This document shows, piece after piece, positions 1,634 through 6,327 of a stretch of DNA of 6,327 bases. The translations under genes and the position numbers were made by a program. The notes beneath the pieces were generated by a model that searched no databases, was not told where the DNA came from, and saw only the letters and a list, made by a program, of their open reading frames with translations. The stretch is taken from assembly GCA_946482635.1 (NCBI GenBank), contig CAMLSG010000263.1, forward strand, positions 1 through 6,327, written 5' to 3'. Position 1 is the first letter of the stretch. Every line of letters begins with the position of its first letter. This DNA comes from an uncultured Duganella sp. Its GTDB lineage: Bacteria > Pseudomonadota > Gammaproteobacteria > Burkholderiales > Burkholderiaceae.

Positions 1634-1652
1634 CCTGTCCAATGCGGACAGG
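1634..1652. promoter_or_regulatory. Perfect dyad, probable activator binding site (UAS)
   Basis: CCTGTCC, five bases, then GGACAGG form a perfect 7+7 inverted repeat of 19 bases. The centre at 1643 is about 107 bases upstream of the transcription start predicted from the sigma-54 promoter. That distance is typical of enhancer sites bound by NtrC-type activators. Its position between the two divergent genes means it could also affect the minus-strand gene, whose candidate -35 starts 13 bases away. What is seen is the dyad; its role as an enhancer is inferred from position and from the downstream promoter class. Confidence 0.72.
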
Positions 1653-1678
1653 TGGACACGGTGGACGCTCGCGGACAG
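1651..1678 (+). repeat. Cluster of GGAC half-sites beside the dyad
   Basis: Two tandem 9-base units, GGTGGACAC (1651-1659) and GGTGGACGC (1660-1668), are followed by GCGGACAG at 1671-1678. The last repeats the eight bases at 1644-1651 in the right arm of the dyad. GGAC therefore starts at 1646, 1654, 1663 and 1673, in the same orientation and at spacings of 8, 9 and 10 bases. This could be a secondary, lower-affinity array for the same regulator, allowing an activator to oligomerise. Confidence 0.5.
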
Positions 1679-1705
1679 CCCGAACAGCAAGAACGGCTCT
1701 TTATA

Positions 1706-1718
1706 AATCAATAGCTTA
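1706..1718 (+). promoter_or_regulatory. IHF binding site
   Basis: AATCAATAGCTTA matches the IHF consensus WATCAANNNNTTR at every defined base. It sits in an AT-rich island (1698-1722), between the proposed enhancer dyad and the sigma-54 promoter. There IHF would bend the DNA so that the enhancer-bound activator can touch the polymerase. It lies rather close to the -24 element (six bases upstream), which is nearer than in many known cases, so the function is inferred rather than certain. Confidence 0.6.
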
Positions 1719-1723
1719 TAGGT

Positions 1724-1739
1724 TGGCACACTTCATGCA
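1724..1739 (+). promoter_or_regulatory. Sigma-54 (-24/-12) promoter of the exporter operon
   Basis: TGGCAC at 1724-1729 and TGCA at 1736-1739 fit the sigma-54 consensus TGGCACG-N4-TTGCW. The invariant GG (1725-1726) and GC (1737-1738) are present and exactly 12 bases apart. Only two consensus positions differ (A for G at 1730 and A for T at 1735). Transcription should begin near 1750. The site directly precedes the adaptor gene. RpoN-type promoters need an ATP-driven activator, so the operon should be silent without its signal. Confidence 0.85.
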
Positions 1740-1768
1740 TTAGCAAGATTGACCAAATCACCAACACC

Positions 1769-1781: not shown

Positions 1782-3047
1782 ATGATTCGCGACACCTCAC
1801 ACCAGGACCAAGTGATCGCAGCTCCCGCCAGCCGCTTCCCGCGCCGCAAAGTGCTGCTGCTGGTGATCGGCCTGGCGCTGGCCGGCGCCGGCTACGGCCT
1901 GCTGAAAAGCTGGAGCGGCAGCGAGCAATCGATCAGCGCCGCGCGCCTGCGCATCGGCGAAGTCACGCGCGGCACCCTGATCCGCGACGCCGCCGTCAAC
2001 GGCCGCATCGTGGCTGCCGTCAGCCCGACCCTGTATTCGACTTCCACCTCCACGGTCGAACTGAAGGTGCACGCCGGCGACACGGTCAAGAAAGGCCAGG
2101 TCCTCGCCGTGCTGGAATCGCCCGACCTGACCGACGAACTGAAAAAGGAACAGACGCTGTTCAACGAGCTGCAAGCCGAAGTCGCGCGCCAGCAGATCCT
2201 GGCCCGCAAGCAAAAGCTGGCCGCCCAGCGCGAAGCCGACACTGCGGAAATCGAGCGCGTTTCCGCCATGCGCACCCTGCAGCGCTACGAAAGCGTGTCG
2301 ACAGAAGGCATCATCGCCAAGATCGACATGCAGAAAGCCAAGGACGCCGTGGCCGCCGCCGACATCCGCGCCCGGCACACCAAGCAGGCCGCCGAACTGG
2401 AAGGCGACAACGTCTCGCTGGAACTGAAAACCAAGACTGCGCAGATGGAGCGCCAGAAACTGTCGCTGGCCAACGCCCAGCGCCGCGTCGACGAGCTCAC
2501 CGTGCGGGCGCCGGTGGACGGCTTCATCGGCACCCTGTCGGTGGCCAACCGCAGCGTGGTGCAGGCCAACACGCCGCTCATGACGCTGGTCGACCTGTCC
2601 CAGCTCGAAGTGGAACTGGAAGTGCCGGAATCCTACGTCAACGACCTGGGCCTGGGCATGACCGCCGAAATCGAAGTGGCCGGCGCCAAGACCAAGGGCA
2701 AGCTGTCGGCGCTGTCGCCGGAAGTGGTGAAGAACCAGGTGCTGGCGCGCGTGCGCTTCGACAAGCAGCCGGAAGGCCTGCGCCAGAGCCAGCGCGTGTC
2801 GGCGCGCCTGCTGATCGACGAGAAGCCGAACGTGCTGATGGTGCAGCGCGGCCCGTTCGTCGAATCGGAAGGCGGCCGCTATGTCTACCTGCTGCAGGAC
2901 GGCATCGCCGTGCGCACCCCGGTGCAGCTTGGCGCCACCAGCGTGGCTGCCGTGGAAATCGTCAATGGATTGAAACAAGGTGACAAGATCGTGATCGCCG
3001 GTACCGAAAACTTCGAGAACGCCAAGCGCGTTTCGATCAACAAATAA
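1782..3047 (+). CDS. Periplasmic adaptor (membrane fusion) subunit of ABC exporter
   Basis: Predicted 421-residue HlyD/MacA-type adaptor, anchored in the inner membrane and linking the ABC permeases to an outer-membrane channel. A short cytoplasmic tail ending in the basic stretch RRK (residues 21-23) precedes a single membrane helix at about 24-41. The first lipoyl half-motif is around 92-112 (HAGDTVKKGQVLAVLESPDL). A long charged, Ala/Lys/Glu-rich two-helix coiled coil spans about 114-237. The second lipoyl half is at 239-271 (VRAPVDGFIG). A beta-barrel domain at about 274-347 and a membrane-proximal domain to the end follow. No lipobox Cys is present, so it is held by the helix and not by a lipid. 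It is the first gene of a four-gene operon driven by the sigma-54 promoter upstream. The family assignment is firm; neighbours point to an ABC partner and not an RND pump. Substrate is unknown. Confidence 0.93.
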   Translation: MIRDTSHQDQVIAAPASRFPRRKVLLLVIGLALAGAGYGLLKSWSGSEQSISAARLRIGEVTRGTLIRDAAVNGRIVAAVSPTLYSTSTSTVELKVHAGDTVKKGQVLAVLESPDLTDELKKEQTLFNELQAEVARQQILARKQKLAAQREADTAEIERVSAMRTLQRYESVSTEGIIAKIDMQKAKDAVAAADIRARHTKQAAELEGDNVSLELKTKTAQMERQKLSLANAQRRVDELTVRAPVDGFIGTLSVANRSVVQANTPLMTLVDLSQLEVELEVPESYVNDLGLGMTAEIEVAGAKTKGKLSALSPEVVKNQVLARVRFDKQPEGLRQSQRVSARLLIDEKPNVLMVQRGPFVESEGGRYVYLLQDGIAVRTPVQLGATSVAAVEIVNGLKQGDKIVIAGTENFENAKRVSINK

Positions 3048-3068: not shown

Positions 3069-3773
<705 letters not shown>

Positions 3774-3774
3774 G

Positions 3775-5085
3775 ATGATCCAGTACTATTTCATGCTGGG
3801 CGTGCGCAGCCTGCGCCGCAACCCGATCCTGACCTCGCTGATGGTGCTGATCCTGGCGGTCGGCGTGGCCGCCAGCGTGTCGACCCTGACCATCCTGCAC
3901 GTGATGTCGGGCGATCCGATCCCGCACAAGAGCGAGCGCCTGATCGTGCCGCTGGTCGACAACGGACCGATTAAAGGCTACACCCCGGGCGAGCGCGAAG
4001 GCGACGAGATGTCCTACCGCGACGCCGTCAACCTGCTCGCTTCCGGCCAGGGCGACCGCCGCACAGCCATCCGCGGCGTGGACGGCACCATCGAACCCGC
4101 GCGCAAGGACCTGCCGGTATTTACCGCCGAGGGCCTGTCGCCGACACGCGACTTCTTCGCCATGTTCGAAGTGCCCTTCGTGCACGGCGGCCCATGGAGC
4201 GAAGCGGACGACAAGTCGGGCGCCGACGTGATGGTCCTGGGCGGCAAGCTGGCCGAGCGCCTGTTCGGCAACGCCAACCCGGTCGGCCAGCGCGTGCGCT
4301 TCCGCGGCTTCGACTATGCCGTGGTCGGCGTGTACGGCAACTGGAAACCGGTGCCGCGCTACCACCGCATCATCGGCGGCCCCGGCGCCTTCGGCGACGA
4401 AGACGAATTCTACATCCCCTTCCACAACGCGATCCGCCACGAAATGGGCCAGAACGGCAATATGAACTGCAGCAGCGACCGCGGTCCCGGCTACCAGGCC
4501 CTGCTCGATTCGGAATGCATCTGGATCCAGTTCTGGTTCGAGCTGCATTCGGCCTCCGACCGCCCGCAACTGCAAGCCTGGCTGGACGCCTACGCCGCTG
4601 AACAGCGCAAGCTGGGCCGCCTGCAGCGCAACGCGCCGAACAAGCTGTTCAACGTGATGGAATGGCTGGAAGAACAGAAAGTGGTAGGCAAGGACAGCCG
4701 CCTGTCGGCCATGCTGGCCTTCGGCTTCCTGCTGCTTTGCCTGGTCAACACCATCGGCCTGCTGCTGGCCAAGTTCTCGGTGCGCGCACCGGAAGTCGGC
4801 GTGCGGCGCGCCCTGGGCGCCTCGCGCAAGGAGATCTTCACCCAGTTCCTGATCGAGAGCGCGGTGGTCGGCCTGGCCGGCGGCATCCTCGGCCTGGTGC
4901 TGGCACTTGGCGCGCTGGCCCTGATCGGCAGCATCTCGGAGCAGATCGCCGTCACCACCCATATGGACTGGATGATGCTGCTGGCGACCTTCGTCATGTC
5001 GGTCAGCGCCGCCATGCTGGCCGGGCTGCTGCCGACCTGGCGCGCCTGCCAGGTCACCCCGGCCCTGCAACTGAAATCGCAGTGA
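3775..5085 (+). CDS. FtsX-like ABC permease, first subunit
   Basis: Predicted 436-residue permease with the MacB/FtsX topology. Membrane helix 1 is at about 17-42. A large periplasmic domain of about 265 residues follows (MacB-type, ending near 308). Helices 2, 3 and 4 are at about 311-333, 357-385 and 398-420. The cytoplasmic loop after helix 2 carries VRAPEVGVRRALGASRKEI (337-355 region), the coupling segment characteristic of FtsX-family permeases that contact the ATPase. The C-terminal PTWRACQVTPALQL is also typical. No ATPase is fused, unlike E. coli MacB. Two cysteines, 232 and 248, lie in the periplasmic domain and could pair. The ATG follows the ATPase stop by one base and has a near-ideal AAGGAGG six bases upstream, so the two are translationally coupled. 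Probably forms a heterodimer with the next gene product. Confidence 0.93.
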   Translation: MIQYYFMLGVRSLRRNPILTSLMVLILAVGVAASVSTLTILHVMSGDPIPHKSERLIVPLVDNGPIKGYTPGEREGDEMSYRDAVNLLASGQGDRRTAIRGVDGTIEPARKDLPVFTAEGLSPTRDFFAMFEVPFVHGGPWSEADDKSGADVMVLGGKLAERLFGNANPVGQRVRFRGFDYAVVGVYGNWKPVPRYHRIIGGPGAFGDEDEFYIPFHNAIRHEMGQNGNMNCSSDRGPGYQALLDSECIWIQFWFELHSASDRPQLQAWLDAYAAEQRKLGRLQRNAPNKLFNVMEWLEEQKVVGKDSRLSAMLAFGFLLLCLVNTIGLLLAKFSVRAPEVGVRRALGASRKEIFTQFLIESAVVGLAGGILGLVLALGALALIGSISEQIAVTTHMDWMMLLATFVMSVSAAMLAGLLPTWRACQVTPALQLKSQ

Positions 5086-5093
5086 GGATAACC

Positions 5094-6327
5094 ATGGAAA
5101 TCAAACCAATCTTTTCCGCGCTGATGCGCTCCAAGACCGGCCCGATCCTGGTGGCCGTGCAAGTAGCGCTCAGCCTCGCCATCCTGGCCAACGCCATGCA
5201 CATCGTCAGCGTGCGCCAGGCTGTCGCAGCGCGCCCGACCGGCATCGCCAATGAAGAAGAAGTGTTCAACCTGCGCGTGAAGCCGCTCAAGCCGGGCGGC
5301 CACGAGGAACAACTGGCGAACCAGAAAGCGCAGGCGGCGGCCTTGCGCGCCGTGCCGGGCATCGTATCGGTAGCCGACACCAACCAGATCACGCTGTCCA
5401 ATTCCGGCAACTACAACAGCGTGGCCGCCAGCCGCGAGCAGGAACGCAGCAACGCCAGCCCGTCGATGTACGTCACGCCGGACTCGCTGGTCAAGACCTG
5501 GGGCCTGAAGATCATCGACGGCCGCGATTTCACGCCGCAGGACGCGCCGGAAATCGACCAGAACACCAGCAAGGCCTTTCCCACCGTGGCCCTGATCACC
5601 AAGGCCACCGGCCAGAAGGTATGGCCGGACGCGCCCAGCTTTGTCGGCAAGAAGCTGTATTACGGCACCGGCGCCGACGCGCGCGAAGTGACGGTGGTGG
5701 GCGTGATCGACACGCTGCAGACCCCGTCCGCCGCCATGGGCCAGGATGGCGAGATGTCGACCATGGTGCCAGCCCGCATCACGGGCAGTTCGCGCTCCCT
5801 GTACACCCTGCGCGCCGAGCCGGGCCAGCGCGACCGCGCCATGAAGGATGCCGAGGAAGCGATACGCAAGCTGCATAACGGCCAGGTAGTGGTGCGCACC
5901 ACCACCCAGTCCGAAGAGCGCGTCAAGCGCTACCGCGCCGACAACGCGCTGTGCTGGATGCTGATCACCGTCAGCGTGCTGCTGATGATGGTGACCGCCA
6001 GCGGCATCGTCGGCATGGCCAGCCTGTGGGTGACGCAGCGCCGCAAGCAGATCGGCGTACGGCGGGCATTGGGAGCGCGCAAGCTCGACATCCTGCGCTA
6101 CTTTGTGACTGAGAACCTGATGATCACCACCACCGGGATTGTCGGCGGCCTGCTTGGCGCACTGGCCTTGAACCAGTTGCTGGTATCGAAGCTGGAGCTG
6201 GCGCGTTTGCCAGCCGAGTATATGGTGGTTGGCGCGCTGGCTTCCTGGGCGCTCGGTATTGCCGCCGTGTACGGGCCGGCATGGCGCGCAGCTTCCATTT
6301 CGCCGGCGCTGGCGACCCGCTCGGCCT
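5094..6327 (+). CDS. FtsX-like ABC permease, second subunit (cut by window end)
   Basis: The reading frame from the ATG at 5094 stays open to the last base, giving 411 residues without a stop. The topology matches the previous gene: helix 1 at about 16-39, a periplasmic domain of about 245 residues, helices at about 286-312, 339-363 and 376-396. The loop QRRKQIGVRRALGARKLDI (315-333) parallels that of the first permease. The final residues (AWRAASISPALATR) are the usual end of this family, so only a few codons are probably missing. GAGGA at 5084-5088 overlaps the previous stop and lies five bases before the ATG. The periplasmic part has little visible likeness to that of the first permease, which fits two specialised halves of a heterodimer and not a recent duplication. 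Function and substrate follow only from the operon. Confidence 0.92.
   Translation, partial: MEIKPIFSALMRSKTGPILVAVQVALSLAILANAMHIVSVRQAVAARPTGIANEEEVFNLRVKPLKPGGHEEQLANQKAQAAALRAVPGIVSVADTNQITLSNSGNYNSVAASREQERSNASPSMYVTPDSLVKTWGLKIIDGRDFTPQDAPEIDQNTSKAFPTVALITKATGQKVWPDAPSFVGKKLYYGTGADAREVTVVGVIDTLQTPSAAMGQDGEMSTMVPARITGSSRSLYTLRAEPGQRDRAMKDAEEAIRKLHNGQVVVRTTTQSEERVKRYRADNALCWMLITVSVLLMMVTASGIVGMASLWVTQRRKQIGVRRALGARKLDILRYFVTENLMITTTGIVGGLLGALALNQLLVSKLELARLPAEYMVVGALASWALGIAAVYGPAWRAASISPALATRSA

Follow-up and report, generated by a model that had tools for sequence, protein, structure and literature searches.

Exporters with FtsX-like permeases have already been connected with sigma-54 by prediction. 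In the accessible part of a 2025 paper (PLoS One, PMC12316311), predicted sigma-54 sites are enriched in front of COG0577 permeases in Gammaproteobacteria, Opitutia and Bacteroidia, predicted sites are also found in front of COG1136 ATPases, and the link between sigma-54 and COG0577 is presented as first evidence. As a prediction, the general kind of system studied here has thus been published before, with FtsX-like permeases of the antimicrobial-peptide type under predicted sigma-54 control in both cases. However, the enrichment reported there is at class level, and the accessible part of PMC12316311 does not describe the operon analyzed here, its enhancer, activator, kinase or peptidase targets. 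The openly licensed literature searched yielded no paper that deals with this operon, its enhancer or its regulon, and the main text of PMC3162934 mentions no ABC transporter, efflux, MacB, HlyD or peptidase, the word export occurring there once, among the references.

We analyzed a 6,327-nt stretch of DNA from an uncultured Duganella sp. (the window). Based on sequence comparison, the region at 1634-1739 is probably a sigma-54 promoter with its enhancer, serving an exporter operon that would include its own regulator and kinase and regulate itself. Four genes follow on the plus strand: a periplasmic adaptor of the RND_mfp/HlyD type (1782-3047; 151.5 bits with TIGR01730, over the curated cut-off of 94.9), a MacB/LolD/DarD-like ABC ATPase recognised by domain and NCBIfam models (3069-3773), permease 1 with domain matches to MacB_PCD and FtsX (3775-5085), and permease 2 with FtsX (5094-6327), which is truncated where the window stops, at its last codon or stop codon. 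The adaptor shares 99% identity with proteins assigned to Pseudoduganella sp., which places the source in Oxalobacteraceae, within or close to that genus. The adaptor, ATPase and two-permease set that a sequence-only reading of this DNA had placed downstream of the promoter is borne out by domain matches in all four genes, and the permeases are of the antimicrobial-peptide type. A gap of 201 nt separates the adaptor gene from a divergent gene on the minus strand (87-1580), in which MutS domain V alone was recognised. This MutS-like gene adjoins the exporter in many relatives and is absent or far off in others; as a cause of promoter conservation it was rejected, being absent or distant in many loci that keep the promoter.

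The exporter resembles MacAB-TolC in its MacA-like adaptor (PDB 5nik) and in its MacB_PCD and FtsX domains. Unlike MacAB-TolC, it has a separate ATPase and two different permeases with no fused MacB, and the MacA and MacB models score far under cut-off for the window proteins (206.9 for the ATPase with the MacB model, cut-off 966). The darobactin exporter DarBCD is close in one respect, since, of the NCBIfam models, DarD fits the ATPase best (259.8 bits), but this score is below the cut-off of 375, the adaptor reaches 66.9 of 450, and the permease is split here. The LolD model gives 221 bits for the ATPase, also below cut-off. The two permeases match the two halves of the duplicated ADOP permease TIGR03434 with 164 and 178 bits, and neither fits that model, which describes one protein with a cut-off of 622.

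Upstream of the adaptor, a sigma-54 -24/-12 promoter, TGGCACACTTCATGCA, lies at 1724-1739 on the plus strand with one mismatch to TGGCACN5TTGCW; G1725 and G1737 are 12 bases apart, which gives GG-N10-GC. An IHF-type site, AATCAATAGCTTA, lies at 1706-1718 on the same strand with no mismatch to WATCAANNNNTTR. Both elements had been claimed by the sequence-only reading, one as a promoter with 12-base GG-to-GC spacing and the other as a perfect IHF consensus, and both are present; the transcript is predicted to start near 1750. Each element alone hardly beats chance (six sigma-54 consensus sites with at most two mismatches in the window vs 4.9 expected, no enrichment), and the case for the promoter therefore rests on conservation. 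For this comparison, the window and 80 Oxalobacteraceae relatives, the best of 115 relatives, gave 81 upstream regions, which were aligned on the promoter. The GG-N10-GC core is found in 81/81 regions, as is TGGCA, while GG-N10-GC occurs in 0.06% of shuffles of the 40-nt promoter zone. Among the 81 regions, 59 have an IHF site without mismatch, 21 a site with one mismatch and one a site with two, whereas 43 of 4000 random places hold such a site within one mismatch. The site lies 17-19 nt upstream of the -24 element in 72 loci and 28-30 nt upstream in nine (ties resolved towards 18 nt), two distances that differ by one helical turn. In comparison, the stretch 110-20 nt upstream of the -24 element has a mean ungapped identity of 33% over the 81 regions. 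These loci are related, and counts over them are not independent events; the flanks have far diverged and the elements have been kept. The predicted sigma-54 architecture is thus strongly conserved, and rpoN is present in all 25 relatives' genomes examined.

An ordinary sigma-70 promoter might instead run the exporter operon for the most part, with the sigma-54 module in a minor role. The window does hold one weak sigma-70-like match (1590-1618, 9/12), and a basal level of the regulator would be needed before it could act. Since such matches also occur in shuffles (0.3) and the sigma-54 core is retained in 81/81 regions, we regard this explanation as very improbable.

The enhancer differs from what had first been proposed. 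A perfect 7+7 dyad, CCTGTCC-AATGC-GGACAGG, is indeed present at 1634-1652 as the sequence-only reading had claimed. When the 201-nt intergenic gap is shuffled, about 5% of the shuffles contain a 7+7 dyad whose arms are 3-10 nt apart. That reading had named alignment of relatives as one check on its module and non-conservation of the -24/-12 and the dyad as grounds for refutation. In the alignment, promoter and IHF site held, but the exact dyad occurs in 1/81 regions, the window alone, and TGTCC-N5-GGACA in 2/81; the dyad was rejected as a conserved unit. The unit that is conserved is (C/T)GGAC, usually arranged head to tail in a single orientation, with 2-7 copies per promoter (mean 4.3 vs 0.33 in random stretches; 81 regions). 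An A follows GGAC in 73% of 341 sites, 302 of the 352 copies begin 41-80 nt upstream of the -24 element, and neighbouring copies are spaced 7-10 nt apart in 212 of 271 cases. The putative enhancer of the window consists of four head-to-tail GGAC half-sites at 1646, 1654, 1663 and 1673 (1645-1678, plus strand; spacings 8, 9 and 10); the right arm of the dyad is one of them, and the left arm is an inverted half-site, TGTCC (1636-1640, minus strand). Inverted half-sites are fewer (1.2 per promoter vs 0.25 in random stretches) and mostly at the distal end. The half-sites appear to be largely direct repeats, because no mirrored TGTCC partner was seen in their flanks in the 81 upstream regions. Direct-repeat half-sites are unusual for NtrC-type activators. 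In the window and its relatives, candidate activator sites are found upstream with the IHF-type bend site between them and the promoter. A search for an internal enhancer (TGTCC-N2-5-GGACA) in 700 nt at the expected place before the regulator gave 0/80, a count that misses the true place in L006, L012, L013 and truncated loci.

The sequence-only reading had further suggested a dedicated NtrC-type activator, perhaps encoded just outside the window, and had proposed to look for a sensor kinase gene next to the operon. Both turned up in relatives: an NtrC-type regulator and a histidine kinase lie downstream of the exporter genes in 77/77 relatives with contigs of sufficient length (those of L031, L053 and L072 are too short and are outside this count). 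The gene order in relatives is adaptor, ATPase, permease 1, permease 2, response regulator and histidine kinase, and judging from them the regulator and kinase of the window itself would lie past its end. Other genes stand between permease 2 and the regulator in three of the 77 (L006, L012 and L013). Judged by eye, the product of the insert is carbonic-anhydrase-like in L006, and the products in L012 and L013 are SDR- and TetR-like. In the latter two, opposing genes part permease 2 from the regulator, so there is no single plain operon there.

Like NtrC and ZraR, the one regulator examined with Pfam (L001) has a receiver, a sigma-54 AAA+ domain and an HTH_8 (Fis-type HTH) domain, and its best PDB match, 4l4u, is of the NtrC family. 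It departs from these activators in that 70/70 regulators carry GAYTGA (64) or GAYTGS (six) as the sigma-54 contact loop instead of GAFTGA, and in that the enhancer often consists of direct half-sites. Tyr in place of Phe is tolerated in this loop. A GAFTGA search of the flanks missed the neighbouring regulator because its motif is GAYTGA. The receiver domain of the L001 regulator is nearest to PDB 2qr3, which we take to be a Bacteroides protein; both carry DMNF after the phospho-acceptor Asp, which hints that the regulator family reaches Bacteroidota.

The kinase has two membrane helices in a gapless 54-residue hairpin in all 64 sequences, of 76, in which both anchors were found. Its structure model, of low confidence (pLDDT 63, pTM 0.40), shows a 4-residue turn between the helices and a PAS-like part inside. 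Two helices with a very short outer loop are the features of an intramembrane-sensing kinase, and the sequences and model indicate a kinase without a periplasmic sensor domain. Bce-type detoxification modules combine an ABC exporter with an intramembrane-sensing kinase. The present locus is like them in placing an exporter beside a two-helix kinase with almost no outer loop, but its regulator is NtrC-type with sigma-54 rather than OmpR-type, and its exporter is made of an adaptor and two short permeases.

Relatives of the kinase (E <= 1e-35) were detected in 25 of 398 sampled Pseudomonadota genomes, and in 23 of the 25 the identity is at least 40%. The spread of the module is patchy, as regulators at least 74% identical were found in just four of 300 sampled Burkholderiales genomes. 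Around kinase relatives, 20 distant loci were examined, and exporter genes, regulator and kinase occur together in 19 of them, the kinase alone being within reach in L262. The adaptor is present in 17 of the 20 stretches (34-46% identical) with gene order kept; L261 and L264 contain three permease pairs each and L256 an extra permease. Thirteen of these 17 loci have GG-N10-GC at the scored site, and the other four (L267, L268, L271 and L272) keep TGGCAY with altered -12 letters (two judged by eye). The enhancer takes the form of a TGTCC-N2-GGACA palindrome in 12/17 (L257-L259 being near copies), and all 12 such palindromes in 221,760 nt sit at most 400 nt upstream of an adaptor. A GGACA-containing site from Gammaproteobacteria reads TGTCCGCGGACA. 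The N5 spacing recurs in L268, L271 and one pair of L274, and direct half-sites replace the palindrome in L267 and L270; both enhancer layouts thus exist outside Oxalobacteraceae.

A pattern of palindrome plus promoter found matches in 14 of the 21 genomes whose kinase relative is at least 40% identical and in none of nine others (two of which had weak kinase matches), and its reversed control matched 0/30. Twelve of the 16 matches precede an exporter adaptor, including those in G552 and G436; with these two added, 15 of the 19 adaptors located have GG-N10-GC. In G619 and G684, matches lie only away from the exporter adaptor, and a match in L276 was dismissed since it lies in coding DNA and looks like chance. 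The last (C-terminal) helix contains SRQALYRR or SRQAFYRR in all 15 distant regulators read, and their loop is GAYTGA in 12 and GAFTGA in three. Relatives of the L265 regulator are named from Thalassotalea, Shewanella, Pseudoalteromonas and Colwellia.

These data bear on the question of which protein reads the half-sites. The promoter could be a sigma-54 promoter whose GGACA sites are read by another activator, with the operon's regulator acting elsewhere; genomes have several activators (14 strong sigma-54 domain matches in G001 and 11 in G011), and some tldD promoters without an array (see below) still hold the -24/-12 core. We consider this unlikely, however, because half-sites and exporter-linked regulator co-occur over a wide phylogenetic range with the C-terminal helix conserved, and the helix SRQALYRRMERLG is unique to the exporter-linked regulator among the 12 activators read in G001 and the nine in G011 (two activator loci per genome gave no protein by pattern).

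With the exporter's own regulator as the reader, the following course of events may be proposed. Once triggered, the kinase would phosphorylate the regulator, which would assemble on the GGACA half-sites. IHF would bend the DNA between enhancer and promoter, so that the AAA+ domain of the regulator could open the waiting sigma-54 complex and transcription could start near 1750. Pump and regulators would be made together, and the operon would amplify itself because regulator and kinase are its last genes. We infer the binding of the regulator to the half-sites, its phosphorylation by the kinase and the need for RpoN. Since the kinase has no periplasmic sensor domain, its signal may come through the exporter or be read by the cytoplasmic PAS-like part. 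As the kinase has almost no periplasmic loop, the pump itself may be the sensor, and a signal relayed by the exporter is the reading that we tentatively prefer.

The same promoter design was also found in front of peptidase genes. A tldD relative is present in 24 of 30 genomes searched, and upstream of the first tldD the sigma-54 core occurs in 24/24 and three or more (C/T)GGAC half-sites in 20/24. Among these 24, an array is lacking in G017 and in three genomes closely related to the window (G001, G002 and G322); the link to tldD has probably been lost in the window's own lineage, as these near kin suggest. Three further tldD loci, from three of 300 genomes of the order, have no array either: L205 keeps the sigma-54 core, L204 has lost the -24 element in a genome with a close regulator, and L206 has lost the GC at -12 in a genome without one. 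In total, an array-bearing promoter precedes tldD-tldE in 20 of 27 loci. L081 (1223-9766) carries tldD-tldE twice, followed by DUF4159, a MoxR ATPase and DUF58; in several genomes, a cluster of this type shares a contig with the exporter, at a distance of 25-30 kb. An M61 peptidase gene with an array was found at three of 29 loci from a protein search (L154-L156; 31 protein matches, two weaker ones left out) and also at L292 and L293, which makes 5/31, although these two were found by pattern and are not an unbiased sample. More distant M61 paralogues and L157 (54%) have no array.

Taken together, the self-regulation of the operon is supported by conservation of promoter and IHF site, the half-site arrays, regulator and kinase in 77/77 contigs, the domains of the regulator, the gene order in distant loci, the placement of the palindromes, the restriction of the palindrome-plus-promoter pattern to genomes with a kinase relative, the conserved C-terminal helix, rpoN in 25/25 genomes and the peptidase targets. 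It is weakened by the array-less tldD promoters of G001, G002 and G322, the altered -12 letters in four of 17 distant loci, the opposing genes in L012 and L013, the direct-repeat half-sites, unusual for this class of activator, and the position of the regulator outside the window.

As to function, the most likely job would be the clearing of peptide-like or envelope-damaging compounds, with substrate and signal both guesses; a peptide-like role is favoured by the permeases, which belong to the antimicrobial-peptide type, and by the peptidase genes that share the promoter design in many relatives. The exporter might instead handle a lipid or lipoprotein and answer general envelope stress rather than peptides, a real possibility that we slightly doubt. 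Its ATPase matches LolD with 221 bits and DarD with 260, in each case under cut-off, and in distant genomes two lipoprotein genes, one with DUF885 (L284) and the other lacking a Pfam match (L280), stand behind the palindrome and a good -24/-12 promoter. On the other hand, TldD/TldE in 20/27 loci and M61 in 5/31 are pointers to peptides. The DUF885 protein was not called a peptidase, as no HEXXH was found in the part of it available in the locus, and an M16 peptidase beside the L290 palindrome was left uncounted because no -24/-12 promoter was found to face it.

Returning to a peptide-directed exporter, we put forward one wider proposal tentatively, regarding it as rather unlikely in its entirety. 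The system may be a Gram-negative sigma-54 counterpart of Bce modules, in which a MacB-like exporter would sense peptide attack, a sensorless kinase would pass on the signal, and the activator would fire exporter, TldD/TldE and M61 peptidases from one GGACA code, palindromic in many Gammaproteobacteria and rebuilt as head-to-tail arrays in Oxalobacteraceae. Sensing by the pump, if true, would extend transporter-coupled sensing to sigma-54 systems. For sigma-54-controlled exporters of this little-studied class, the analysis also defines an enhancer code, an activator and a set of targets that can be put to the test, and the arrays offer a natural experiment in which the enhancer layout changes while the half-site and likely its reader stay constant.

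Pattern searches were also applied to relatives' genomes. A loose pattern of array plus promoter was discarded as evidence in itself (55 matches vs 58 for the reversed control in 20 genomes). The strict pattern matched 46 of 50 genomes, with 95 matches vs 12 for the reversed control; several of the 95 overlap at one site, most precede the exporter and some are evidently chance. Six strict matches were examined outside the exporter, two at M61 genes and four without an array (L294-L297). Among the latter, L294 has a sigma-54 and IHF-type promoter (538-596) with no GGAC array before a secreted-protein gene, and L295 resembles a TauABC-type operon, also with no array. In addition, G008 has a second, paralogous exporter (L092, 6965-9974), whose ATPase is 50% and whose adaptor is 25% identical. 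It is accompanied by a divergent sigma-54 activator (36%) and may have a -24/-12 site upstream of its adaptor.
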